Assembly (NCBI GenBank): GCA_013388755.1
Contig: JACAEQ010000060.1
Coordinates: 1 to 64,000, forward strand
Origin: Chloroflexota bacterium
GTDB lineage: Bacteria; Chloroflexota; Chloroflexia; Chloroflexales; Roseiflexaceae
DNA length: 64,000 nucleotides
Direction of reading: 5' to 3'
The notes beneath the pieces are model-generated. The model was not told the origin of the DNA and did not search any database. It saw nothing but the letters and a program-made list of their open reading frames with translations. Both the position numbers and the translations under genes were made by a program. Each line of letters opens with the position of its first letter. The first letter of the stretch is position 1. This document shows, one piece after another, positions 2,689 through 17,850 of this stretch.

Positions 2689-3084
2689 ATGACAACACCG
2701 GCTGTTTTTACCATGTTCAACGGCCATCAATACATGAACCTGACCACGTTCCGTAAGAATGGCCAGCCTGTGCCGACGCCAGTCTGGTTTGCGCTCGAAG
2801 GCGAGCGTATGTTTGTTGTGACCTTCGCTTCCTCTGGCAAGGCCAGGCGCATTCGCGCCAATCCGCGCGTGCAACTGGCGCCGAGCGACGCGCGTGGCAA
2901 GCCACTTGGCGCGACGGTCGAGGCACAGGCGCGTATTCTCGATCCGCGCGAAGCAGAGCAAGGACGCCAGGCGCTGGCACGCAAGTATGGTGTGCTCTTC
3001 TGGCTCTTTGGCGTATTCTGGTGGGTACGTCGCATGACGCCGATCTTTCTGGAGATTACTCCTGCGGCAGGCGGTGGTGTGTGA
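2689..3084 (+). CDS. PPOX-class F420/flavin-dependent oxidoreductase (Rv2061-like)
   Basis: A 131-residue split-barrel protein of the pyridoxamine-5'-phosphate-oxidase-like superfamily. The features NLTTFRKNGQPVPTPVWFAL, SGKARRIRANPRV and ATVEAQARIL are those of the Rv2061c branch, annotated as F420-dependent oxidoreductases. Such proteins are small cytosolic dimers that bind FMN or F420; the substrate is unknown. The C-terminus has an aromatic stretch (FWLFGVFWWVRR) that may pack on a membrane or partner. AAGGAG overlaps the rhaI stop and sets the start. Cofactor choice cannot be decided from the sequence. Confidence 0.8.
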   Translation: MTTPAVFTMFNGHQYMNLTTFRKNGQPVPTPVWFALEGERMFVVTFASSGKARRIRANPRVQLAPSDARGKPLGATVEAQARILDPREAEQGRQALARKYGVLFWLFGVFWWVRRMTPIFLEITPAAGGGV

Positions 3085-3093: not shown

Positions 3094-3126
3094 GCTCGCC
3101 CGGTACACAGGGAAGTGAGATCGAGT

Positions 3127-4203
3127 GTGTCATATTCCATAGCGCTGGGGCCTTTCCACCCTGCGTGGCCTGGTCCACAGCGCTTCATTCTGCGCATCGC
3201 CGACGAACGTGTCGTCGATGTCGAGTATCAGGGCGGTTTCAATGAGCGCGGCTGCGCCGAACGGTTGTCGCGTCTGTCATTGCCCGATGCATTACATCTG
3301 GTGGCTCGTATTTGCGGCGAATGTTCGTTTGCCCACTCGCTTGCCTTCTGCCAGGCCGTTGAACAACTCTGTGGCCTGAATGTCGAAGTGCGCGCATCAT
3401 TGCTTCGCACCGCCATTGCTGAACTCGAACGAGCCGCTTCCCACCTGCGTGCCGCTGCTGCGGTGTTGCACGCGATCGGTATGAAACCGCGCGGTACGGC
3501 ACTTGATGCGTTTCGTGAGCAACTCCGCAATCTGCTGGCATCTATCGCCGGTGGGCGTATTGTTGCTGCAGTGTGTGCGCCTGGCGGATTGCGGCGCGAC
3601 CCGGCGCCATCCGATCGAGATGCCGTGCTTGCGGCGTTGCCCGAGATTGGCGCTGCGCTCTATCGTTTCATCGACCGCTTGATCGACCAGCGTTTCCTGC
3701 TGGCACGCACGATTGACGTGGGTGCGCTGCCACGCGCGGCAGCCGAGCAGTTCGGTGTGCGCGGCCCACTGGCGCGCGCTTCAGGTATTCCGCGCGATGT
3801 GCGGGCGGACCATCCTTATGCAGCGTATGAATCGCTCGGCTTTCACCCGATTGTGCAGGAAGGGGGCGATGTGTATGCGCGCTTGCTGGTGTTCCTCCTC
3901 GAAGCGTATGAAGCCATCAAGCTGGTTGATGCCGCACTGCAGCGTCTGCCTGAAGGGAGGAGCGTCGTCGAGCTACCGGGCGAATTACCGCGTGGGCAGG
4001 CGAGCGTCTCGGTGGAAGGCCCGCGTGGTGCCATTCGCTACGCCCTTGAGAGCGATGGTGTGCGCCTGACACGGGTACAGATTGATACGCCGCGGCAGTT
4101 CGATCGACTCCTGGCGCGAACGCTGCTGAGCGCGGCGCAGATGGATAACGTCATGGCGATTATCGCGTCGGCCGATGTGTGCGTGGCCTGCGCGGAGCAG
4201 TGA
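3127..4203 (+). CDS. Group-4-like [NiFe] hydrogenase large subunit (Ech/CooH/HyfG type)
   Basis: A 358-residue protein with the length of the short EchE/CooH class. The N-terminal IALGPFHPAW block is characteristic. The first nickel motif, RICGEC followed by histidine three residues on (C63, C66, H70), is intact. The second motif near the C-terminus, DVCVACAEQ (C352, C355), keeps both cysteines although the usual DPC reads DVC. All four nickel-binding cysteines are therefore present, unlike NuoD of complex I. The protein ends three residues after the last cysteine, so it has no maturation peptide to cleave. GTG 3127 is preferred to GTG 3115 for the cleaner N-terminus. It heads a tight gene set with 4212, 5954, 6770, 8377 and 8732. 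Confidence 0.75.
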   Translation: MSYSIALGPFHPAWPGPQRFILRIADERVVDVEYQGGFNERGCAERLSRLSLPDALHLVARICGECSFAHSLAFCQAVEQLCGLNVEVRASLLRTAIAELERAASHLRAAAAVLHAIGMKPRGTALDAFREQLRNLLASIAGGRIVAAVCAPGGLRRDPAPSDRDAVLAALPEIGAALYRFIDRLIDQRFLLARTIDVGALPRAAAEQFGVRGPLARASGIPRDVRADHPYAAYESLGFHPIVQEGGDVYARLLVFLLEAYEAIKLVDAALQRLPEGRSVVELPGELPRGQASVSVEGPRGAIRYALESDGVRLTRVQIDTPRQFDRLLARTLLSAAQMDNVMAIIASADVCVACAEQ

Positions 4204-4211
4204 CAGGACAG

Positions 4212-5951
4212 ATGACACTTCTGGCGCTTGTTCTGCCGCTTGCCGGCATGGTATCACTTCTGGCATTGAACCGCCGGGTTGCGACGCGTTCTGCTGCTCT
4301 TGGGGGTGCAGGGACGCTGTTGCTCAGTGCATTGCTGCTGTCCGGGGATCGCCTGTCGCGGGGGTTGCCGCAGACGGTGATCGCGCATGCGTGGATGTGG
4401 TTGCCTGAGCAGGATGCACTGGTGCTGACGCTCACGCTTGATGCGGTGAGCTGGCCGCTGGCGTTGCTCGTTTACGCTGGAGGGGTGGCCGCCATAGTGA
4501 GCGCCGCGCTGGCGTTGCCTCCCGATCTGCGTGGTTTTGGCGGCATGTTTGCAGCACTCCTGGCCGGGCTGGCGGTGTTGGCGTCAGGGGTTATGTGTGA
4601 CACGCCGCTCTTATTGCCGTTCATACCGGTGGTTGTAGGAGTGACATGGTTCACTGCGCTACGTGCAAGCGGAGCACTGGCAGGATCCATGGCTCCACTC
4701 ACGCTGGCGCTTGGGGGCAGTGCTGCGGCACTGGCATTACTGGTGGCGGCACTGGTCGAGCGTGCCGGCGGCACAGGTCAGGCGTCGGCAATCATTGTGG
4801 GATGCGCGGTCATGGCGGCGCTGCTACTGTGTGGTTTTGCGCCGGCGCATACAACCATCGCGGCAGCAGGCATGGCACCGGCGGCGCTGGCTGTGTTTGT
4901 GCCGCTGGGCCTGCCACTGGCCGGCGCGGTGGCGTTGCTCCGGCTGTTGCCGGGCCAGCTTGCGTCGCTCAGTGATGAGAGTCGCGGGATGCTGCTGGCC
5001 ATCGGCTTGCTGGCAGTGCTCAGCGCCGCAGCACGCGCCCTCTGGTCACGAGCGTTGCGCCAGATCGTCGTCGCGCAATTCAGCGCGCAGCTCGGGCTGG
5101 TGGTGGTGTGCGCCGGTTGCGGCGAAGCAGCCTTTGCGGCCGTCGCTCCCGGCCTGGTGGCGAATGCCGTGCTGACGACGCTGGCTTTGATGATCGGCGT
5201 TGTCGCGCTTGAGCGTCGCACCGACAGTAATGATCTGATGATGCTCCGTCCTGACGCATCATTGTGGCTGGCGAGCCTGGGTGTTCTGATTGCTGCCGCC
5301 TCAAGTGTCGGGGTTCCGGGGACGTGGGGTATGTGGCCCAGGCTCTGGCTACTTGACGCTGCGATGGCTATGGCGCCGTGGGTCGTTGCACCGCTGCTGG
5401 CCGGCAGTGGTATGCTGGCGCTGGCGCTGGTCGCGCCGCTTGCGGTGTTCTGGCGAGTGGCGGCACTGGCGCCGGCGCCGGCACCAGCCAGTGTGACCGG
5501 TATCGTGGCAGTGACCGTGGCTGCGCCGCTCCTGGTCATGGGTGCCGTGCCCGGCGCGACGTGGGATCTCTGGTTTGCAGCGATGCAGGCTCAACTGGCG
5601 CCGGCGGCGACCACCACGCCCCGCCTGCCGGCGCTCATGGGGCAGATTGCCACGGCAGGCGCGTCAGGTGCGCTGATTGTCCTGTCGGTACTGGCCCGGC
5701 GCGCCCGGTTGCGCCGGGCGCCGCCAGCAGACGAGCGCCTCAATGGAGTACTGACCCCTGATTCCGCCGGCGCAGCACTGTACGGCATAGCATGGCTTGC
5801 CGCACCAGCAGCCTCTGTACGGTCGCGGTTGGTCGTCGCGTGGATTGAGCCGTGGGTACGCCAGGGCCTGCTGGTGCTGGGGAAACGCTATTACCTGGCA
5901 GTTGTGGTGGTTGTGCTGATCGTGATAATTCTGGTGTTTTCCGCCGGGTGA
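4212..5951 (+). CDS. Divergent NuoL/HyfB-like antiporter-type membrane subunit
   Basis: A 579-residue, almost wholly hydrophobic protein with about fourteen predicted membrane segments, 8 bases after the large-subunit stop. Family traces are the CGFAPAHTTIAAAGMAPAAL stretch, matching the KxAxxPxHxWLPxA region of NuoL/NuoM, and the VALERRTDSNDLMML stretch, matching the loop after segment 10. By hand alignment the segment-7 lysine is replaced by a hydrophobic residue and the segment-5 glutamate is missing (the region reads LLPFIPVVVGVTWFT). These residues are needed for proton pumping in complex I, so this subunit may be structural. ATG 4212 follows GACAGGA; the upstream in-frame start at 4179 is less likely. 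Confidence 0.65.
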   Translation: MTLLALVLPLAGMVSLLALNRRVATRSAALGGAGTLLLSALLLSGDRLSRGLPQTVIAHAWMWLPEQDALVLTLTLDAVSWPLALLVYAGGVAAIVSAALALPPDLRGFGGMFAALLAGLAVLASGVMCDTPLLLPFIPVVVGVTWFTALRASGALAGSMAPLTLALGGSAAALALLVAALVERAGGTGQASAIIVGCAVMAALLLCGFAPAHTTIAAAGMAPAALAVFVPLGLPLAGAVALLRLLPGQLASLSDESRGMLLAIGLLAVLSAAARALWSRALRQIVVAQFSAQLGLVVVCAGCGEAAFAAVAPGLVANAVLTTLALMIGVVALERRTDSNDLMMLRPDASLWLASLGVLIAAASSVGVPGTWGMWPRLWLLDAAMAMAPWVVAPLLAGSGMLALALVAPLAVFWRVAALAPAPAPASVTGIVAVTVAAPLLVMGAVPGATWDLWFAAMQAQLAPAATTTPRLPALMGQIATAGASGALIVLSVLARRARLRRAPPADERLNGVLTPDSAGAALYGIAWLAAPAASVRSRLVVAWIEPWVRQGLLVLGKRYYLAVVVVVLIVIILVFSAG

Positions 5952-5953
5952 TA

Positions 5954-6676
5954 ATGATGCCAACACTTGCGATCAACTGGACGATTGTCGGTATGGCCGC
6001 CGCCAGTGGCATGATCCTGCTGTTGCGCGACTGGCGCGTGACCGTGCCGGCGCTGCTGGCGAGTTACCTGTGCGTGGTACTCTTCCTCGCACAGCAGCAG
6101 TTTATTACCCCTGATCTGGCATTTGGCGCACGCACACTCAGCACAACGGTTGTGGTCAAACTGGTCACAGGGCTCGCTGCCAGTGCCATTCTGGCGATTA
6201 CGGCCATCACATTCTCGCGCGAGTATAACCTGGAGGAACTTGACGAGTTTTCATTGACCGAACTGCGCCGCGCCGCGCGCCGCGCGCAGCGGCAGCGGGC
6301 CAGCGAACCGTTTCGCATCTCGGAGTATATCGTGCCGTTCTGGGCACTGGTGCTGGTGGCGCTTGCAAGCCTGGCGCTGCCGCGCCTCTACCCCATCGGT
6401 AGCCAGGAGGTCGACTTTGCGTGGTACTGGCTGGGATTGACCGGCCTGTTCACGATTGTCATCGCTGGTGACATGCTGAAAATCGGGCTTGGCTTGCTTC
6501 TGATCGTCAGCAGTGTCGACCTGGTCTATACTGCGGTGGCCAGTACAGTTCAGGTGTTTCCGCTGGCGTTGTTGAGCCTGACTACCATCGTGCTGGCGTT
6601 GTCCGTCGCCTACTTGAGCGGCCTGTTGTACGGTCGCCTGAAGACGCTCGATCTGGCGGAGTTGTACCAGCGCTGA
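5954..6676 (+). CDS. HyfE/NuoK-like membrane subunit
   Basis: A 240-residue protein with about six to seven membrane segments and one charged cytoplasmic stretch in the middle (LEELDEFSLTELRRAARRAQ). The C-terminal half, GDMLKIGLGLLLIVSSVDLV followed by two hydrophobic segments, is like NuoK/HyfE, where one short segment carries the GxxLLxxxxNL-type pattern. Two adjacent ATGs occur at 5954 and 5957, and the previous stop ends 2 bases before the first, so translation is probably coupled. HyfE-type proteins form the membrane arm of formate-hydrogenlyase-like hydrogenases. Confidence 0.6.
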   Translation: MMPTLAINWTIVGMAAASGMILLLRDWRVTVPALLASYLCVVLFLAQQQFITPDLAFGARTLSTTVVVKLVTGLAASAILAITAITFSREYNLEELDEFSLTELRRAARRAQRQRASEPFRISEYIVPFWALVLVALASLALPRLYPIGSQEVDFAWYWLGLTGLFTIVIAGDMLKIGLGLLLIVSSVDLVYTAVASTVQVFPLALLSLTTIVLALSVAYLSGLLYGRLKTLDLAELYQR

Positions 6677-6769
6677 GATGACAGGAGACGAGAGGCGAAC
6701 TGCTTCACGAGGCTGGTGCACCTTTACCCACGGAACGGTCATTGTTGTATCGGGTCCAGTACGGCACGT

Positions 6770-8227
6770 ATGCCCTATCTTCTACTGATAACCTTTCCTG
6801 TCGCCATCGGTGCAAGTTGTTTCTTGTTGCGCACACAGACACGGCTGGTTATTGTGCTGGCAGTGGCGACGATGCTCGCACAAGTTGCGCTGGCGGTCTT
6901 CATTCCGGTCGATCAGCCAGTGCGCCTGCTAGGCCTGACGCTGAACCTTGACCCGCTCGGTCAACTCTTCCTGATCGTCGTTCCGGCAGTAACCGCGCTG
7001 ATGTTCGTCACAACATGGCGGTTGCCCCATGGCGAGAATTACCTGCCGATTGCGCTTATGATCATCGGGCTGGCATCAACGATCGTCCTGTTGCTTCAGG
7101 AGCCGTTCGTCGCAGCACTGTTGCTGGTCAGCGCCGGTCTGCTCTCGGTGCTGGCGATCGTCGATCTGCCGACAGGTTCGTCGTTGCTGGTTGAGCCGGC
7201 AGTCATCGCTTCGGCGCTCAAATACCTGGTATTGATGGCAATTGCCGGTGTGTTAATGTACATGGGGTTCATACTGATCAATATGTACCGGCCAGGCGTG
7301 ATGCCGCAGCAAGTCGAGCCGCCACGGATCGTTCTTGCTCTCCTGGCTGTCGGGTTTGGCCTGCGCCTGGCGGTGGCGCCATTCCACTCCTGGCTACCTG
7401 ATCTGGTCGAACATGCTGCGCCCATGGTGGCAGCCCTGGTGATTATTGTCCTGAACACAACTGGCCTGCTGTTTCTGATCAGTGTATTTCAGTTCTTCCC
7501 GGTCATCGTTGCCGAAAATGAACATGGCCTGGCACTGCTGGCATGGCTGGGAGCGCTGGCTGCACTGGCCGGGGGCCTGATGGCGCTGGTGCAGGATCGC
7601 CCGCGCCGCGTGGCTGGCTATCTGGTCGTCTATAATGCCGGGATGGTGCTGTTCGGGCTGGCGACGATCACACCTGCGGGCCTGGCGGGTGCGGTCTTTG
7701 AAACATTCAACCAGATTCTGGCCGTGCCATTGCTCCTGCTCTCACTGGCGCTACTGGAACAGCCGGACGGCAGAGCACCGAATGTCGTGCGGCGCGATCT
7801 GCTCTGGCGCTGGCCGGTTGGTGGCGCCGGTCTCCTGGGTGGTGGCCTGGCGTTGCTTGGTTTGCCGCCATTCAGCGGTTATGCCAGCAAAATGCTGTTC
7901 TACGATGTAGCGGCGCGCAATGATATCGTGTTCCTGGGGTTGTTGGTTGGTGCGACGGCGCTAGGGTTGCTCGCGCTGGCACGCCTGGCCCATCAACGCT
8001 TGCTCGGCGCGCCGGAGGATCAACCGGTGGAAGAAACGCCACGTCTGCTTGGGATGACCGAGGTTGACCTGCCGGCGCAACGACGCCTGGAGCGCGAGCC
8101 GCCGGTTGTTGCTCTGGCCGTGGTGCTCTTACTGGCATGGTGCCTGGCGATCGGTCTCTACCCGAAACCGCTGCTGGCGATGATTACCGACATGATCCGC
8201 GGACTGACATTCGTCCGTGAGTTGTAA
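6770..8227 (+). CDS. NuoN/HyfF-like proton-channel subunit
   Basis: A 485-residue membrane protein with about fourteen hydrophobic segments. The family core is clear: SALKYLVLMAIAGVLMYMG, then VGFGLRLAVAPFHSWLPDLV (the lysine of the usual motif replaced by arginine), and later LLGLPPFSGYASKMLFYD. The segment-5 glutamate is not evident. It is better conserved than the 4212 protein and is the likeliest ion-translocating subunit. The ATG at 6770 is chosen because it starts a normal transmembrane helix; the 93-base gap before it shows no clear ribosome site. A dispersed repeat and a new promoter separate it from the small subunit. Confidence 0.7.
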   Translation: MPYLLLITFPVAIGASCFLLRTQTRLVIVLAVATMLAQVALAVFIPVDQPVRLLGLTLNLDPLGQLFLIVVPAVTALMFVTTWRLPHGENYLPIALMIIGLASTIVLLLQEPFVAALLLVSAGLLSVLAIVDLPTGSSLLVEPAVIASALKYLVLMAIAGVLMYMGFILINMYRPGVMPQQVEPPRIVLALLAVGFGLRLAVAPFHSWLPDLVEHAAPMVAALVIIVLNTTGLLFLISVFQFFPVIVAENEHGLALLAWLGALAALAGGLMALVQDRPRRVAGYLVVYNAGMVLFGLATITPAGLAGAVFETFNQILAVPLLLLSLALLEQPDGRAPNVVRRDLLWRWPVGGAGLLGGGLALLGLPPFSGYASKMLFYDVAARNDIVFLGLLVGATALGLLALARLAHQRLLGAPEDQPVEETPRLLGMTEVDLPAQRRLEREPPVVALAVVLLLAWCLAIGLYPKPLLAMITDMIRGLTFVREL

Positions 8228-8243
8228 TCTGTGTGTCATCCCG

Positions 8244-8315
8244 GGTAGCAGTCGATCGTCCAGGTTCACAGGACCCTGAGGAGCCGTGCAGCGGTGTAGC
8301 GCAGGGGGCATGCCG
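8244..8315. repeat. Dispersed repeat, copy 1 of 2
   Basis: About 70 bases match 53345-53415 on the same strand. The best blocks are GGTAGCAGTCGATCGT and CCCTGAGGAGCCGTGCAGCG, with a diverged middle. Both copies lie between genes and just upstream of a promoter. There is no coding potential. It interrupts the hydrogenase gene set between the NuoN-like and small-subunit genes. Confidence 0.75.
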
Positions 8316-8328
8316 TCTCGACCGATCG

Positions 8329-8371
8329 TTGTATGTCTGAATGCAACCGGGTATAACACCTGCCAGGTGTT
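8329..8371 (+). promoter_or_regulatory. Promoter with overlapping palindromic operator before the small-subunit gene
   Basis: A TTGTAT -35 box (8329-8334) lies 17 bases before a TATAAC -10 box (8352-8357). A 17-bp palindrome, AACACCTG-C-CAGGTGTT (8355-8371), overlaps the -10 and the predicted start site and ends 5 bases before the ATG at 8377. A bound protein would block transcription; in RNA the second half-site carries the AGGTG ribosome site. This would give the small and NuoH-like subunits, and the ABC genes behind them, separate control from the first four genes. Confidence 0.5.
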
Positions 8372-8376
8372 GAAAC

Positions 8377-8742
8377 ATGCTCCAGGTCTATCGTCTTAAT
8401 ACAGGATCATGCGGCGGATGCGATCTGGAAATCGCGGCGGCGATTGATGCTGCCGTGGATATCGCCTGGGCCGCGACACCGTTTGATGCCGATGTGCTGA
8501 TGATCACCGGGCCCGTCACGGCGGGGGCCAGGCGTGCGCTGCTGGCACTGTTGCAAGAGCTCGATGGTCGCGTGCCGGTGCTGGCGGTCGGGCGCTGTGC
8601 CATCGACGGGCATCCGTTTGGGCGTGGCGGGCTGGCAGAGCTCGCGTCGGTGACCGCGCGTCTGAAACTCGATGGCTGCCCGCCGTCAGCGGTGCAGATC
8701 GCAGACATGATACGTCGTGTTGCCGCCAGCGATGAGGGCTGA
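8377..8742 (+). CDS. Group-4-like [NiFe] hydrogenase small subunit (EchC/HycG/NuoB type)
   Basis: A 121-residue protein of the minimal small-subunit kind, with ligands for one [4Fe-4S] cluster: NTGSCGGCDLEI (C12, C15), VGRCAIDG (C74) and DGCPPSA (C101). The C-x-x-C spacing in the first motif is that of hydrogenases, whereas NuoB has adjacent cysteines. With the large subunit at 3127 it would form the catalytic dimer, the cluster passing electrons to or from the nickel site. No partner with ferredoxin-like CxxCxxCxxxC motifs is encoded nearby, which leaves the electron donor open. It overlaps the next gene by 11 bases. Confidence 0.8.
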   Translation: MLQVYRLNTGSCGGCDLEIAAAIDAAVDIAWAATPFDADVLMITGPVTAGARRALLALLQELDGRVPVLAVGRCAIDGHPFGRGGLAELASVTARLKLDGCPPSAVQIADMIRRVAASDEG

Positions 8743-9571
8743 GGTGGCTGCATCATTCATGGGATTGGTGCTCACACTGCTGCTTGCGCCTGTGCTGGCG
8801 GTTGGCTTTGGCGCACTGGTTGCGGCGATTGCGGCCGGTGACAGAATCAGGCTGCGCCCGCCGGAGCAACGCCTGCCGTTGAGCGTCGATGCCCTTGTGA
8901 CGCTGGTGAGTGTCGTGCTCGCGGTGCTATCAATGGCGCTATTGCCCTGGCCACTGCACCCGGCCGGCGCCAGCAACTGGGTCGGGCATCCGTTGCTGGT
9001 GTGGGTCATGGTTGAGGGCGCGTTTCTTGCGCCGCTCCTTGCCGGTCTGCTGGCGCCGTCGCCGCTGGCTATGCGGGCAGCGTTGCGCGATGCCCAGATC
9101 AGTGCAGGAGGTCGCATCGTATTGTGGCTCGTGATCGGTGGTTCCCTGTGGGGCGGTGCAGGCTGGGAAGCACATGAACTTCCGGGGCGCGGGCTGTTGC
9201 TGGTTGCCGGGTTGATGGCAGTTGCCGCCGCGGCAGGGGTTGGCCCGTTTGCGCCTGACGATACCCTTGCGCCTGCCGGCGCGGAGGAAGGCGCCGATGC
9301 CATGGCGCGCTGGCTGGCATGCCTGGCGCGCCACGTGCGCGGTGGCCTTGCCGTGGCGCTTCTGGTCGCCGCCGTGATCCCGGGGCCGGCTATTGTGCAA
9401 CCTGTGCCGGCGCTGCTGCTGGCGCTGGGATTGTTCGTCGTGATAACGCTGGGATTGCGGCAGGTTCGCCTGGCATTGCCGCGCTTCACACTGCACATGG
9501 CGTTGCGCTGGTGCCTCTGGCGCGCTCTGCCGGTTGGGATTGCCGGTGTGTTGTACCTGGCATTGACATAA
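8732..9571 (+). CDS. NuoH/HyfC/EchB-like membrane subunit
   Basis: A 279-residue protein with about eight membrane segments. It keeps weak NuoH landmarks: GDRIRLRPPEQRLPLSVDAL near the N-terminus (the quinone-chamber loop region of NuoH), an acidic loop LAPAGAEEGADAMARWLACL in place of the EAE...EYSG loop, and a C-terminal LALPRFTLHMALRWCLWRAL resembling the RxDxLLxxxWK end. NuoH-like subunits dock the catalytic dimer to the membrane arm. ATG 8732 overlaps the small-subunit stop; ATG 8759 behind GAGGTGG is an equal alternative. It is divergent enough that function rests largely on context. Confidence 0.6.
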   Translation: MRAEVAASFMGLVLTLLLAPVLAVGFGALVAAIAAGDRIRLRPPEQRLPLSVDALVTLVSVVLAVLSMALLPWPLHPAGASNWVGHPLLVWVMVEGAFLAPLLAGLLAPSPLAMRAALRDAQISAGGRIVLWLVIGGSLWGGAGWEAHELPGRGLLLVAGLMAVAAAAGVGPFAPDDTLAPAGAEEGADAMARWLACLARHVRGGLAVALLVAAVIPGPAIVQPVPALLLALGLFVVITLGLRQVRLALPRFTLHMALRWCLWRALPVGIAGVLYLALT

Positions 9572-9575
9572 CAGT

Positions 9576-10628
9576 ATGAATGTTATTGAGATTGAGGATG
9601 TCCATAAGGCGTATGAAGACGTGGCGGTCTTGCGCGGCGTGAGCCTGCATGTGATGCGCGGCACGGTCTACGGGTTGCTGGGGCCGAATGGATCGGGAAA
9701 GACCACGCTGATCCATGTGATGCTCGGCTTTCTGCGCCCCGATCGCGGTACGCTGCGTGTGCTGGGCAGCAACCAGTTGCAACGGATCGATGGCCGTGTC
9801 GGCTATGTGCCGGAACGCTTACGGTACCATACACGCTACACGGCTCGTGAGTATCTCCATTACCTGGGAAGGTTCAGCAACCTCTCCGGTGCGGCGCTGA
9901 GCAGCCGCATCAATGCTGAACTTGGGGCGGTTGGCCTCACTGCGGTCGCCGATCGGCAGTTGAGCACGTTTTCACGTGGCATGCTGCAGCGGATCGGTAT
10001 CGCTCAGGCGTTGCTGAGTGAACCGGAGTTGCTGCTGATAGATGAACCGACATCCGGTCTCGACCCGGGCGGCCAGCACGATGTGATTGCGCTGCTTGAC
10101 CGGGTGCGCACACGCGGCTGCACTATCTTCATGGCGACGCATTTCCTCGATGAGGCGGAGTTGCTCTGTGATCGGATCGGCGTCCTGCATGCCGGTCGTA
10201 TTGCGGCGGAGACCGAGATGCATAGGCTGCGCGGTCCCGGCGGTAGTGTGGTCATCACCGTGGAGGCGCTGCCGCCAGGCATGGCCGAGATGCTGGCATC
10301 ATTCTCGCCGGCAGTACGCTGCATCGGCCAGGAGATTACGCTGGCACCCAACACGCCGGCGCTCCAGGCCAGGGTATTGCGCGCGCTGCTCGATGGCGGG
10401 GTCGCCATTCTCAGCCTCGTGCCGCAGCACCGCCCGATCGAGGAGTTTTACCTGCGCGCTGTGCGTGGTGAGAAGGCGCCGGATCGCGCGTCTCAGGCGA
10501 TGGAACCATCGCCTGATGCGATCGTTCCGCCGCCACCGGGACCATCCGGCACGGGTGATACACTGCTTCGTGAATTGCTGAGCCGTGAAGAAGGGCGCCA
10601 GCGCAGTGAACCAGAGAGCGATGCATGA
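9576..10628 (+). CDS. ABC transporter ATP-binding protein (ABC-2/drug-export type)
   Basis: A 350-residue cytosolic ATPase with GPNGSGKTT (Walker A, about residues 37-45), a signature-like FSRGMLQRIG, LLLIDEPTSGLDP (Walker B) and a switch histidine in MATHFLDEAELL. After the ATPase core come about 120 residues of the regulatory tail seen in CcmA/NatA-type exporters. It begins 4 bases after the NuoH-like gene and overlaps its permease by 4 bases. The tight spacing places it in the hydrogenase transcript. The cargo is unknown, and there is no binding protein to suggest import. Confidence 0.88.
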   Translation: MNVIEIEDVHKAYEDVAVLRGVSLHVMRGTVYGLLGPNGSGKTTLIHVMLGFLRPDRGTLRVLGSNQLQRIDGRVGYVPERLRYHTRYTAREYLHYLGRFSNLSGAALSSRINAELGAVGLTAVADRQLSTFSRGMLQRIGIAQALLSEPELLLIDEPTSGLDPGGQHDVIALLDRVRTRGCTIFMATHFLDEAELLCDRIGVLHAGRIAAETEMHRLRGPGGSVVITVEALPPGMAEMLASFSPAVRCIGQEITLAPNTPALQARVLRALLDGGVAILSLVPQHRPIEEFYLRAVRGEKAPDRASQAMEPSPDAIVPPPPGPSGTGDTLLRELLSREEGRQRSEPESDA

Positions 10629-11386
10629 GCGCTCTTCATCGCACGCTACAATTTGCCGTCTTCACGCTCATCGAGTATCTGCGTTCCGGGCGCATCATGG
10701 TCGAGGCGCTGGCGACAGCGGCTGCGTTCTATCTGCTCTTCCGGCGCTGGACGACGCCGATGGCTCCGGAGTATTTCTTTTCCACCGTGGGGCTCTTTAC
10801 CCTGGGGTTGACGTTCTACACCGGATCGGCAATCCTCGCGCTGGGCGACCGGCCGCCGGGCTATGTGCTGCTGGCACGTCGTCTGGGGCGCGGCCCATAT
10901 CTGCTCGGCCTGTACACGGCTATCCTGGCGGTTACCTGGGGTGTCTACGGCGTCATCTGCCTGCTCGTTGCTGCGACGAACCCGGTAGACGGCCTGGATC
11001 TGCGTGGCTGGTTGCTTGGCACGGCGCCACTCTTGCTGAACCTGGCACTACTGGCGGCGTTACTCACCCTGCTCTCGCCGATCGTCCTGCCCGCGCCGTG
11101 GCGCCTGGCGGTACTTGCGCTGGTTGCACTGGCTTTTTCCGGGAGCCTGATCGGCGGCCCGACGATGGCGTCGCTGCCGGCGCCGGTGGCGGTCGGGCTG
11201 GATGTTTTGCGCACCGTGTTGAGCACGCCGCTACTGCCGGCGTTTACCGGTTTTGCTATCTCGGTGAGTCGCGATTACAGCGGTGTGTCCATTGCAATTC
11301 CTGTTGCTCAGTTGTTTCTGGTGATCGGCATGCTGGCGCTGGCAGTGTATACGTTCGCGCGGCGCGAGTTGATCTTCTCTTCCTGA
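10625..11386 (+). CDS. ABC-2-type permease
   Basis: A 253-residue membrane protein with about six hydrophobic segments, starting in an ATGA overlap with its ATPase gene. No substrate-specific motif is seen. With 9576 it should form an exporter of two ATPases and two permeases, or it may act in membrane-protein assembly. A 13-bp palindrome (GTTCAGTCTGAAC, 11391-11403) lies just after the stop. Confidence 0.7.
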   Translation: MSALHRTLQFAVFTLIEYLRSGRIMVEALATAAAFYLLFRRWTTPMAPEYFFSTVGLFTLGLTFYTGSAILALGDRPPGYVLLARRLGRGPYLLGLYTAILAVTWGVYGVICLLVAATNPVDGLDLRGWLLGTAPLLLNLALLAALLTLLSPIVLPAPWRLAVLALVALAFSGSLIGGPTMASLPAPVAVGLDVLRTVLSTPLLPAFTGFAISVSRDYSGVSIAIPVAQLFLVIGMLALAVYTFARRELIFSS

Positions 11387-13482: not shown

Positions 13483-13524
13483 ACAATCAGCGCACGCGTG
13501 TGCAACGATAAAAATACTATCAGC

Positions 13525-13530
13525 TATAAT
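13525..13530 (+). promoter_or_regulatory. Possible -10 box for the cyclase/ATPase/TPR gene
   Basis: A perfect TATAAT lies 39 bases before the GTG at 13570, without a convincing -35 hexamer. If it is used, the GTG at 13498 cannot be the start, which supports 13570, where CAGGAG stands 8 bases upstream. Confidence 0.4.
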
Positions 13531-13569
13531 GCATCTGGCACACACGATGTAGCGATCAGGAGCCGCAGA

Positions 13570-16500
13570 GTGTTGCAGCGCAATGCACAGGGTATGCTGG
13601 ATTCGGTGGATGCTGGCGGTGTTGCGCCTGAACGGCTGGCGCGTTATCTGCCGGCAGAGTTCAGTGCCGATCCCGCCGCACTGCGTGAACGTAACCGTGC
13701 CATGATGGCATTCGTGCACCTTGTCGCGGCAAGGTATACGATCTCGACCTACCTGCCACGCCAGATCATCCGGCGCGCATTGCATGAGCGCCGGGCGACT
13801 CCGTGGCTGCACTGGGTCGAAGGGTCGCTGTTGTTTGCCGATCTCTCCGGTTCGACGGCGCTGGCCGAACGGCTCAGCGCGTTAGGTCGTGAAGGCACCG
13901 AACTGGTCACCGACTTCCTCAATCGTTTCTTTGCCCAGATGATCAACGTCATCGAGCAGTACGGCGGCGACCTGGTGTCGTTTGGCGGGGATGCCGTGCT
14001 GGTACTGTTTGATGATGCGCATCATCCGCAGACTGCGGCCCGTGCCGCACTGGCGTTGCAGGAAACACTCAGGGGATATGGGCGCAGTATTGCCGGCGTG
14101 GGTGAGTTTCCGATGCATCTGCATATTGGTGTCGAGAGCGGCCAGGTGGCGCTGGTCAGTGCCGGCCGGCCGGACGCGCTCCATTATGCGGTGCTTGGCG
14201 CTGTGGTCAATGGCGTGGCTCGTGCGGAGTCGCTTGCCGGGCCGGGTGAAGTGGTGCTGGGGCGGCGCATCCGTGAACTGGTGGGTGATGCCCCGGGCGA
14301 TGAGCTGCCGGATGGATTTCTGCGCCTGCACCGGATGGCCCCGATGGTGGCATTACCACCCGGGCCTGCTACCGACCTGGCCGTGCATGAGGCGACGAGT
14401 GCGGCGATTGCGCCGCTGGTGGACGATCTTGATCGGATCAGCCCGTACATGCCACCGGCGTTGCTCAGCCGCATTGTGGCAGCACCTGAACAACCCCAGG
14501 TTGAAGCCGATCTGCGCCCAGTCACGGCGTTGTTCGCCCAGGTTGTTGGTCTCGAAATGCTCGCCGAGGTGCTGCCGTCCGATCATGCGGCCCGCGCCTT
14601 TGAGTATTACATCATGGCGATGCAGGAGGCGATCGAGCGCTATGGCGGGGTCGTCAACAAGATTGATGTCGCCGAAGAGGGCGTCAAGTTGCTGGCGATC
14701 TTTGGCGCGCCGGCGGCGTATGAGGATCATGCGGAACGGGCGGCGCGCGCCGGGCTGGCAATGCAAGCGGCCATGGACGAGGTGAATGCGGCGATCGAGG
14801 CATTGTTGCACAGTGACGGCCACGACTCCGTGGCGCACCATTCGACGCCGATTGCGTTCCTGCGCCAGCGGATCGGGCTGAATTCCGGCACGGTCTTTGC
14901 CGGGAACGTTGGCAGTCTGGAGCGCAAGGAATACACGGTGATGGGGGATGCGGTGAATAGCGCCGCGCGTGTGATGAGTGCAGCACCGTGGGGTGAGGTG
15001 TGGGCCAGTGCGGCGCTTGCTGCCGCAGCACCGCGCATGCGGTGCGAGCCGCAGGGTACCGTGGCACTGAAAGGGAAGTCGGCGCCGCTGGAACTCTGCC
15101 GGATAGGCGGTGAGCGCGGTGCCGACGGAGCGCCTGTCGAGTTGATGGGGCGGCGTGCGCCATTCATCGGGCGTACTCACGAACTGGCATGGTTGTCGGC
15201 GGAACTGGATGCAGCGATTACCGGCACCGGACGGGCGGTGCGGCTGGTTGGCGAGGCGGGCGTTGGCAAGAGCCGGCTGGCCGCTGAACTCGTCGAACTG
15301 GCGAACAGCCGCGGTGTACGGGTCATCTCAGCGACCTGTCTCGCGTATACTGCAAGCATTCCGTACGCTGCCTGGGGTGAATTTCTGAAATCGCTCTGTT
15401 GCCTGGTGGCTGGCGAGAGCAGCGATGCGCGTGCAGAACGGATCGCCATGCATCTGGCCGCGCTTGGCCCCGGTATGCAAGAATGGCTGCCGTTGCTGGG
15501 CGACCTGGTACGCCTCGACATCCCTGATAACCGGTTGACGCGTGGCCTTGATCCGCAATTGCGCCAGGAACTCCGCTTCGATCTGATCGAGCGCCTGTTG
15601 TTACACGCGGCCAGTGAAGGCCCGCTTCTGGCAATGTTTGAGGATCTCCACTGGGCCGACCCGGTTTCGATCGATCTCTGGCAGCGGGTTGCTCACGTGG
15701 TGCAGGCACACCCGATCCTGTTGCTTGGCGTCCACCGTCCTTCACTGGCGCTGACACCGGCCGACGATGCTGCAGTGCTCGAATTGCGCGAACTTCCGGC
15801 CGAAGATAGTGATCGCCTGGTTGAGTCGCTGGCGGGCGATGCACGACTTCCTGAGCCGCTACGCCGCCAGATTGCCGCGCGGGCGGCAGGGAATCCGCTC
15901 TTTCTTGCCGAGTTGTTGCGCGCAGTGCTCGACCGGCTGGAGGCCGACCGGACCATCTCCGCCGCGTTCGATGGCCTGCCGGATAGCCTGAATGGCCTGC
16001 TGCTGGCACGCATTGATCGCCTCGACGAAAATAGCCGGGGCGTGCTGCGCGTGGCGTCGGTTATCGGCCAGCGTATCCCGTTCGGCGTGCTGCATGCCAT
16101 CCAGACGGCTGACCGGGTTGCGCTGCTGCGGTTGCTGACACGTCTCGACGAGCAAGAGATCACGCTGCTGGAACGTACCGAGCCGGAGCGGGTACACCTG
16201 TTCCGCCATGCGCTCTTGCAGGAGGTAGCCTATCAGAGCATGCTGTACGCCCGGCGGCGCGAACTACATGGTCGCATTGGCGAATATCTTGAGCGGCGGT
16301 ACGGTGACGATCTTGATGACTATTATGGCCTGCTGGCGCACCATTACCGGCTGAGCGACCGGCGGGACAAGGCGGTGCATTATCTGTTAAAGGCGGGTCA
16401 TGCAGCGCGCGCCGTCTTTGCGAATGAGGAAGCGCTGCAATACTATCACTGGGCGCTTGATGCGCTGGCGGGCGACGAGTCCGATCCGCGCACCTGGGAG

Positions 16501-17850
16501 GCACGCGAGGCGATCGCCGAAGTTGAGGCGACGCTGGGCCATTATGGCGAAGCGCTGGCCCAGCTTGCCGCTATCCTGGAAGCACCCGGCGTGCTGCCCG
16601 ACACGATGCAGGAGGCGTACCGCCGCCGTGGCGCGATTCTGGAAAAACAGGGGATGTATGCTGCAGCCCTGGAAGAACTTGAGCGCGCCATGGCCATTGC
16701 ACAATCCCATGCTGCGGATGTTGCGTCTCTGGCTGTGCCGACGATCAGCGCGGATATTGCGCTGGTGCGCCGGCGACGCGGTGAGTATGATCTGGCGCTT
16801 GCGGCGTGTGAGGCGGGCCTGGCGGCGCTACGCCAGGCGGCAGATGAGCGAATCGAGGCGCGATTGCACGCTGAGAGTGGCGCAGTGCTGACGCTGCGCG
16901 GCGATTATGTGCGCGCCAGACAGTTTTTCGAACGCAGCCTGCAGGTGCGCGAAGCACTCGATGACTTGCCCGGCATGATTGCATCGCACAATAACCTGGG
17001 CTACCTGTGGCAGCTTCAGAGCGCTCATGATCGCGCACTCGAACACTACCGTGTGGCTGAAGAACTGGCACGCAAGATTAATCTGCGGTATGCCATTGTC
17101 TATGCCCTTGGCAATATCTCGTACGCATTGACCATTCTTGGGCGCTATGGCGAGGCAGAGGCGCGCTGTCACGAGGCGCTCGCGCTCTCACGTGAACTGC
17201 ATGCCCGGCAAACCACGGCCCAGTTGCTCAATACGCTGGGCATCGTCTATTACCGCCGCGGCGAGTATAAGCGGGCGCAGGCGATCTATGAAGATGCGCT
17301 GCGCATGAATCACGAACTTGGTAGCGCCGACCAGGAGGCCAATGCCATTGTCCATCTTGCACAGGCGCATAGCGCACAGGGTGATCATGTGCAGGCTGCT
17401 GAACTTGCGCGACGTGCGCTGGCGACGGCTGAGGCGCTTCAGGCACTACCGCTCAAGGTCGAGGCACTCAATGCACTGGCCGAGGCAACCCTGGGTGCTG
17501 GTGATGCTGCCGCTGCGGCAGCGTATGCCGACCAGGCGGTCGTATTGAGTCGCGCACTCGGCGCTGATGATACGACGGCGATTGCGCTCAGATTGCGCGG
17601 CGAGGCGACGCAGGCGCGCGTTGCGGATTTTAGCGAGAGTGCAATATTGTGTGAAGTGGTCCAGGATCGATTCGAACTGGCGCGTACATGGCGGGCGCAT
17701 GGGGACGCACTGGTACGGGCCGGAAACCTTGACGACGGTGCCGCGTATCTAAAGCGGGCATACGATACGTTCATGGCGTTAGGAGCTGATGGCGAATTGC
17801 GCCGCGTGGTGCCCGTCGATCCGGGGTTCACTCCCCGTGATGCCGGCTGA
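13570..17850 (+). CDS. Tandem class III cyclase - AAA ATPase - TPR regulator (soluble adenylyl cyclase-like)
   Basis: A 1426-residue soluble protein. Cyclase domain 1 (about 80-260) has LLFADLSGSTAL with a metal aspartate near 90 and VSFGGDAVLVLF with the second near 139. Cyclase domain 2 (about 315-510) has lost the first aspartate (the region reads LFAQVVGLEML) but keeps VMGDAVNSAARVM, the ribose/transition-state helix. This asymmetry, and the order cyclase-cyclase-ATPase-TPR, is that of animal soluble adenylyl cyclase and its bacterial relatives. The ATPase has GEAGVGKSRLA (about 562) and LAMFEDLHWADP. At least ten TPR-like repeats fill about 930-1400. It probably makes cAMP in response to a ligand; GTP use is not excluded. 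A small leader-like peptide gene follows after 50 bases. Confidence 0.85.
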   Translation: MLQRNAQGMLDSVDAGGVAPERLARYLPAEFSADPAALRERNRAMMAFVHLVAARYTISTYLPRQIIRRALHERRATPWLHWVEGSLLFADLSGSTALAERLSALGREGTELVTDFLNRFFAQMINVIEQYGGDLVSFGGDAVLVLFDDAHHPQTAARAALALQETLRGYGRSIAGVGEFPMHLHIGVESGQVALVSAGRPDALHYAVLGAVVNGVARAESLAGPGEVVLGRRIRELVGDAPGDELPDGFLRLHRMAPMVALPPGPATDLAVHEATSAAIAPLVDDLDRISPYMPPALLSRIVAAPEQPQVEADLRPVTALFAQVVGLEMLAEVLPSDHAARAFEYYIMAMQEAIERYGGVVNKIDVAEEGVKLLAIFGAPAAYEDHAERAARAGLAMQAAMDEVNAAIEALLHSDGHDSVAHHSTPIAFLRQRIGLNSGTVFAGNVGSLERKEYTVMGDAVNSAARVMSAAPWGEVWASAALAAAAPRMRCEPQGTVALKGKSAPLELCRIGGERGADGAPVELMGRRAPFIGRTHELAWLSAELDAAITGTGRAVRLVGEAGVGKSRLAAELVELANSRGVRVISATCLAYTASIPYAAWGEFLKSLCCLVAGESSDARAERIAMHLAALGPGMQEWLPLLGDLVRLDIPDNRLTRGLDPQLRQELRFDLIERLLLHAASEGPLLAMFEDLHWADPVSIDLWQRVAHVVQAHPILLLGVHRPSLALTPADDAAVLELRELPAEDSDRLVESLAGDARLPEPLRRQIAARAAGNPLFLAELLRAVLDRLEADRTISAAFDGLPDSLNGLLLARIDRLDENSRGVLRVASVIGQRIPFGVLHAIQTADRVALLRLLTRLDEQEITLLERTEPERVHLFRHALLQEVAYQSMLYARRRELHGRIGEYLERRYGDDLDDYYGLLAHHYRLSDRRDKAVHYLLKAGHAARAVFANEEALQYYHWALDALAGDESDPRTWEAREAIAEVEATLGHYGEALAQLAAILEAPGVLPDTMQEAYRRRGAILEKQGMYAAALEELERAMAIAQSHAADVASLAVPTISADIALVRRRRGEYDLALAACEAGLAALRQAADERIEARLHAESGAVLTLRGDYVRARQFFERSLQVREALDDLPGMIASHNNLGYLWQLQSAHDRALEHYRVAEELARKINLRYAIVYALGNISYALTILGRYGEAEARCHEALALSRELHARQTTAQLLNTLGIVYYRRGEYKRAQAIYEDALRMNHELGSADQEANAIVHLAQAHSAQGDHVQAAELARRALATAEALQALPLKVEALNALAEATLGAGDAAAAAAYADQAVVLSRALGADDTTAIALRLRGEATQARVADFSESAILCEVVQDRFELARTWRAHGDALVRAGNLDDGAAYLKRAYDTFMALGADGELRRVVPVDPGFTPRDAG

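Follow-up and report, generated by a model that had tools for sequence, protein, structure and literature searches.

A compact group 4 hydrogenase-related gene cluster of Chloroflexales, linked to an ABC transporter and probably not an energy-converting hydrogenase

Gene content and subunit identities

The window, a 64,000-nucleotide stretch of DNA from a Chloroflexota bacterium, carries six genes for relatives of group 4 [NiFe] hydrogenase subunits, followed by a gene pair for an ABC transporter (Table 1), and the gene spacing suggests that all eight, from 3115 to 11386, form one operon. The initial annotation had read the six as a compact group 4-like hydrogenase complex, and we recovered their order and coordinates as it gave them, with the start of the large-subunit (LSU) gene slightly upstream of its position 3127, at a GTG codon. 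Every cysteine motif that it listed is in place (RICGEC and DVCVAC in the LSU; SCGGC, GRCA and DGCPP in the small subunit, SSU), and, as it also stated, the cluster holds neither a ferredoxin (NuoI-like) nor a NuoC-like gene. Directly upstream lies a pyridoxamine-5'-phosphate-oxidase-like gene (2689-3084), which, among the loci read, is confined to the genus of the window and the sister genus nearest to it. A 1450-aa reading frame at 13498-17850 displays, by eye, adenylate/guanylate cyclase domains together with an ATPase and TPR-like repeats.

Table 1. Genes of the complex and of the adjoining ABC transporter in the window.
Product	Position	Strand	Remarks
LSU, NuoD/HyfG-like large subunit	3115..4203	+	362 aa; GTG start; without C-terminal extension
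NuoL/HyfB-like membrane subunit	4179..5951	+	590 aa
HyfE/NuoK-like membrane subunit	5948..6676	+	242 aa; NuoK assignment weak
NuoN/HyfF-like membrane subunit	6773..8227	+	484 aa
SSU, NuoB/HyfI-like small subunit	8377..8742	+	121 aa; ligands for one [4Fe-4S]: C12, C15, C74, C101
NuoH/HyfC-like membrane subunit	8738..9571	+	277 aa; eight helices
ABC transporter ATPase, DrrA/NodI/GldA-like subfamily	9576..10628	+	starts 4 nt past NuoH
Putative ABC-2-type permease	10625..11386	+	253 aa; overlaps ATPase gene; no Pfam match; assigned to this type by its position beside the ATPase

Searches against Pfam matched the LSU to Complex1_49kDa (5.6e-41) and weakly to NiFeSe_Hases (2.6e-6), the SSU to Oxidored_q6 (2.3e-11) and the NuoN-like protein to Proton_antipo_M (6.4e-18), and gave no significant match for the NuoL-like, 242-aa and NuoH-like proteins. 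By sequence search, the closest solved structures to the LSU and SSU are subunits of Mbh and of E. coli FHL, and profile-profile comparison paired the LSU with HyfG (100%), the SSU with HyfI (99.8%), the NuoL-like protein with HyfB (99.6%), the NuoN-like protein with HyfB/HyfF (99.9%) and, moderately, the NuoH-like protein with HyfC (86%). The predicted structure of the NuoH-like protein (pLDDT 90.6) found NuoH in Foldseek (E 5e-6) and reached a TM of 0.73 to HycD and Mbh-M. The earlier NuoL-, NuoN- and NuoH-like labels therefore stand, whereas the NuoK-like label comes down to a weak profile match of the 242-aa protein to HyfE. A fold search of solved structures with the predicted model of that protein gave no relative, leaving a NuoK identity unconfirmed by either profile comparison or fold. 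No other protein of the complex is as well conserved as this subunit, whose charged cytoplasmic loop at about residues 99-111 (D99, R107, R108, R111; LDEFSLxELRRAARxAQRQR) is invariant. By eye, the subunit resembles two NuoK-like halves.

Catalytic, channel and maturation features across the order

The LSU of the window keeps all four Ni/Fe cysteines (C67, C70, C356, C359), along with H74 (equivalent to Mbh His75), P303, R304 and D354. In pairwise alignment, G20 takes the place of Mbh Glu21, from which the NiFe site chiefly receives its protons (PMC11228991), and the equivalent of this glutamate is absent from 44 of 45 LSUs of the compact clade described below and kept in the remaining one. 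Glu69 occupies the position of the Ile in the CGIC motif, and other superfamily-invariant residues have been replaced (H44 by E, E48 by A, E64 by A, R260 by F, N330 by D), including several that are invariant in canonical and Cys-less relatives alike. Invariants at the level of the fold are kept, namely E83, R98, E103, R106, R198, R221, D228, R230, D252, R256, E263 and E301.

The antiporter-like subunits were compared with a reference set of 42 HyfB/F/D subunits, in which the channel residues Glu, Lys, His and Lys are conserved in 40-42 of the 42 members. In alignments that rest on 15-24% identity, the TM5 Glu, the TM7 Lys and the His and Lys of the HSLAK motif are all replaced in the window's NuoL-like protein, and its NuoN-like protein has V119 for the TM5 Glu, R198 for the TM7 Lys, Q314 for the His and V318 for the Lys; order-wide, the channel residues are gone from all NuoL-like proteins, the NuoN-like ones keeping only the Lys-to-Arg exchange in TM7 and a few His, and hhalign agrees. 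When the charged residues within hydrophobic stretches are counted without an alignment, the number is reduced for the NuoL-like subunits only, not for the NuoN-like ones. With the channel residues missing, pumping is unlikely.

Within the window's genome (5.08 Mb, 145 contigs), hypA, hypB, hypC, hypD and hypE are present on contig C79, away from the complex; the earlier statement on missing hyp genes thus holds for the window and fails for the genome. The genome has four other [NiFe] large subunits, two of classical group 1 type, one NiFeSe-like and one Vhu-like, and one of the two group 1-type genes lies on C79 as well. A NuoC-type subunit encoded elsewhere, one way of completing the complex, found no candidate in this genome, which has two NuoC genes only, both beside the complex I NuoD in its two complex I operons (C75, C81).

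We found LSU homologues with 39-76% identity in 55 of 60 Chloroflexales relatives; they fall into four family-level groups: f1, Roseiflexaceae-like and including the window; f2; f3, Herpetosiphon-like; and f4, Chloroflexaceae-like. Two further relatives (G012, G041) have the NuoN gene and no clear LSU, the LSU stretch being missing there, and two relatives without the complex, G010 and G013, are incomplete genomes (G013 83% complete). Gene order is fixed across the relatives and the frames are intact in more than 50 genomes; conservation of the gene neighbourhood, suggested at the outset as a check, is seen order-wide in Chloroflexales. In a quick tree of 98 sequences, the compact LSUs form one clade (SH-aLRT 98, rising to 100 without the long-branched G319), separate from canonical group 4, from Cys-less Hyq/Ehr-type sequences and from NuoD, in keeping with the possible new subgroup proposed at the outset. 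Other group 4 loci in Chloroflexota mostly have a ferredoxin subunit and often NuoC. Outside the order Chloroflexales the complex was seen in one relative only, G319, which belongs to another order of the class and has the compact layout too. The G319 locus (L143, 6323-12004) is a five-gene version, in which the LSU has four cysteines and the proton-donor Glu, the SSU lacks all four Fe-S ligands and a NuoH was not recognised; a TM5 Glu and a TM7 Lys/Arg are still present in its antiporter subunits, an intermediate state.

One and the same set of 30 genomes among the 60 relatives lacks both HypC and HypD, and most members of this set have the complex. Among these are 16 Roseiflexaceae-like genomes with all four LSU cysteines (CCCC), including G001 (100% complete) and G007 (98%), and also G019, which is only 82% complete; sister genera at about 60% identity have the same cysteine motifs without HypC/HypD. 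The absence of hyp genes, which had been named as an argument against an active nickel site, is therefore a property of half of the order, though not of the window's own genome. The four-Cys state and the presence of Hyp do not correlate on the tree, where independent pairs are too few to be decisive. In one genome (G029; L116, L171), HypC and HypD are present, yet the sole PF00374 match is the degenerate complex (CHCC), possibly reflecting an assembly gap.

The metal ligands themselves also vary. LSU position 70 is His in 5 of 5 f2 genomes (CHCC) and Asp in 9 of 9 f3 genomes (CDCC), and the full Cys4 set is missing from f2, f3 and part of f4. A general loss of LSU cysteines in Chloroflexaceae, considered at one point, proved wrong, as most keep all four in the form CPxC...PCxxC. 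No SSU turned up anywhere in the Chloroflexaceae-like genomes tested, where complex I NuoB was the only protein of its kind, and most of these keep CCCC in the LSU. The main locus of Herpetosiphon suggested a loss of the SSU there as well, which we rejected when a whole-genome search found SSU, NuoH and the ABC genes at a second locus; this SSU has none of the four Fe-S cysteines in the four Herpetosiphon-like genomes read whole. The SSUs of G048 and G319 are also Cys-less. Two families without any Fe-S cysteine thus still conserve the complex, and its conservation where neither NiFe(CN)2CO nor Fe-S can be held points to a shared function independent of hydrogenase chemistry.

Linkage to the ABC transporter and selection

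Wherever an f1, f3 or f4 locus extends far enough, the ABC ATPase gene lies directly 3' of NuoH, usually with the permease. At the second Herpetosiphon locus the ABC pair follows SSU-NuoH, indicating that it moved together with them, and in f2 genomes the permease is present in all, at another locus unlinked to the complex. The permease was found in 14 of 15 Chloroflexales genomes searched, the exception being the incomplete G013 (83% complete), and in 0 of 9 genomes from other orders of the class; at the threshold applied, the complex itself was missing from eight of these nine. Since complex and permease are both order-wide traits, it is their linkage, and not their co-occurrence, that constitutes the evidence. 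This linkage suggests a functional coupling with the transporter, and we lean slightly towards a partnership between the complex and the ABC pair.

All subunits evolve under purifying selection, with an overall dN/dS of 0.01-0.27 (0.01-0.08 for Herpetosiphon-like, 0.06-0.24 for Chloroflexaceae-like and 0.02-0.27 for Roseiflexaceae-like pairs), and the lowest values belong to the redox-dead Herpetosiphon versions. This result contradicts the view that the cluster is a decaying relic without function, to which we assign a negligible probability: decay would fit the step-by-step disappearance of cofactors, subunits and catalytic residues, but not the low dN/dS in every subunit, the Herpetosiphon-like ones included, the intact frames or the conserved gene order.

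Candidate functions and relation to known systems

Having lost its entry point for ferredoxin, its catalytic proton donor and its pumping residues, the complex is very probably not an energy-converting hydrogenase. Its ancestor would have been a group 4 hydrogenase-type enzyme that shed these features, and what remains would be a membrane platform of NuoL-, HyfE-, NuoN- and NuoH-like subunits carrying the cytoplasmic LSU. The LSU would hold a small metal site, Cys4 here and Cys3His or Cys3Asp in sister families. Zinc or a single metal ion, and not NiFe(CN)2CO, is what such ligand sets typically bind, and their retention suggests a single metal ion. To this the SSU would add one [4Fe-4S] cluster in the window's family, and the platform might work with the downstream ABC-2-type transporter, for example by assembling, gating or redox-tuning it. 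For the window's genome we infer that H2 chemistry and pumping would both be lost, that the metal would be of this simpler kind and that the complex would be physically coupled to the transporter. Overall, we give about even chances to a non-pumping, probably non-hydrogenase derivative of complex I that was repurposed as a metal-bearing membrane assembly for the ABC transporter. The metal-platform mechanism as proposed is tentative, and equally tentative is its specific form, in which the NuoD/hydrogenase fold would serve the filamentous, gliding Chloroflexales as a metal-dependent, possibly zinc-dependent, platform for driving or gating an ABC-2-type exporter, with no electron transfer or pumping.

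One option in the initial annotation was a minimal membrane hydrogenase supplied with electrons straight from a soluble carrier; the Hyp-less relatives, the loss of the SSU and of Fe-S cysteines, and the missing proton-donor and channel residues speak against it. Were such an enzyme an ion-pumping member of group 4, supplied directly by ferredoxin or through a subunit encoded elsewhere, the subunit homology and cysteine motifs would be accounted for, but pump residues are lost in both antiporter-like subunits, the genome has no spare NuoC, the complex occurs in Hyp-less genomes and the SSU, its sole Fe-S relay, is dispensable in Chloroflexaceae, all of which makes this version highly improbable. 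An active non-pumping [NiFe] hydrogenase, confined to the window's genome and other Hyp-positive Roseiflexaceae-like members, would oxidise or evolve H2 at the LSU and pass electrons, with one [4Fe-4S] in the SSU, to or from menaquinone at the NuoD/NuoB/NuoH interface or a soluble carrier. Non-pumping H2:quinone chemistry needs no antiporter residues, and the four Ni/Fe cysteines, H74, P303, R304, D354, the SSU ligands and hypABCDE are all available for it; we nevertheless consider it unlikely, given Gly20 at the place of the main proton-donor Glu, Glu69 at that of the CGIC Ile, the loss of several invariant residues, the sister genera with the same motifs and no HypC/HypD, and a hyp contig that also bears a classical group 1-type hydrogenase. 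The case for an assembled NiFe site in the window's genome, which would draw on the hyp genes, the eight cysteines, H74, P303, R304 and D354 there and in the closest relatives, appears weakened.

A Hyq/Ehr-like oxidoreductase, that is, a non-hydrogenase, redox-coupled and quinone-linked enzyme with an unspecified donor, seems to us distinctly unlikely as well. It would fit the six-subunit cores without NuoE/F/G known as Hyq (PMC3357923), the Ehr complexes without Ni/Fe residues described in PMC6349859, and the retention of H15 and the NuoD fold core in f1-f3, but the compact LSUs form a clade apart from Hyq/Ehr-type sequences, two families conserve the complex without Fe-S cysteines, and Hyq/Ehr-type reference antiporters keep their channel residues. 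The Hyq core of Azorhizobium and related Cys-less Hyf-like clusters (L046-L064) share with the window complex six subunits and the lack of a separate ferredoxin subunit, their NiFe site being unclear or absent; unlike the window LSU, the Hyq LSU has a NuoC domain and no CxxC pairs (PMC3357923), and Hyq-related SSU loci carry extra cysteine motifs. Ehr and Mbx/Mbs are, like the window complex, group 4-derived with a NiFe cofactor that is not assured. PMC6349859 describes Ehr as presumably linking redox reactions in the cytoplasm with the transport of ions, whereas the compact complex has lost its pump residues and, in two families, all Fe-S cysteines; the Ni/Fe ligands, lost in Ehr in the broad sense, are kept in the window and partly replaced in f2/f3 and some f4.

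Among characterized systems, Hyc/Hyf formate hydrogenlyase (group 4a) and Mbh (group 4d) have homologous large, small and membrane subunits and are the closest solved relatives, with four cysteine pairs that the window keeps. In contrast to both, the window complex is without HyfA/HyfH ferredoxin subunits, a NuoC domain, Glu21 and the channel residues, and its LSU is short, has no cleavable tail and belongs to a separate clade. Respiratory complex I shares the NuoB/D/H/L/N ancestry, but its NuoD forms a clade of its own, and NuoC/E/F/G/I have no counterpart in the window complex. Open-access papers on the Chloroflexus genome and transcriptome report two nuo clusters only, with two hydrogenases in the transcriptome paper (PMC3150298, PMC8004040), and the compact cluster is not mentioned in the passages found there. 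Six-subunit cores, some without CxxC pairs (Hyq, PMC3357923), and group 4-related complexes without Ni/Fe ligands (Ehr, PMC6349859) are already known. The combination of pump-residue loss, family-wide loss of redox ligands and ABC linkage under strong order-wide selection was not found described in the open-access literature.

Relatives of complex I are redox-driven pumps. If the whole membrane arm and the NuoD/hydrogenase subunit are indeed under strong selection after cofactor and channel loss, this architecture can serve a non-redox role, and the lineage would offer a natural deletion series for the function of each part. A caution for annotation also follows, in that cysteine motifs alone are insufficient for a hydrogenase call: the window would receive a group 4 [NiFe] hydrogenase label, and many of its relatives in the order cannot be such enzymes. 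Outside Chloroflexota, the LSUs of Patescibacteria-like Hyf clusters (L041, L043-L045, L048, L050) are without CxxC pairs and their SSUs, where in view, are nearly Cys-free, apparently a redox-dead parallel derivative of group 4.
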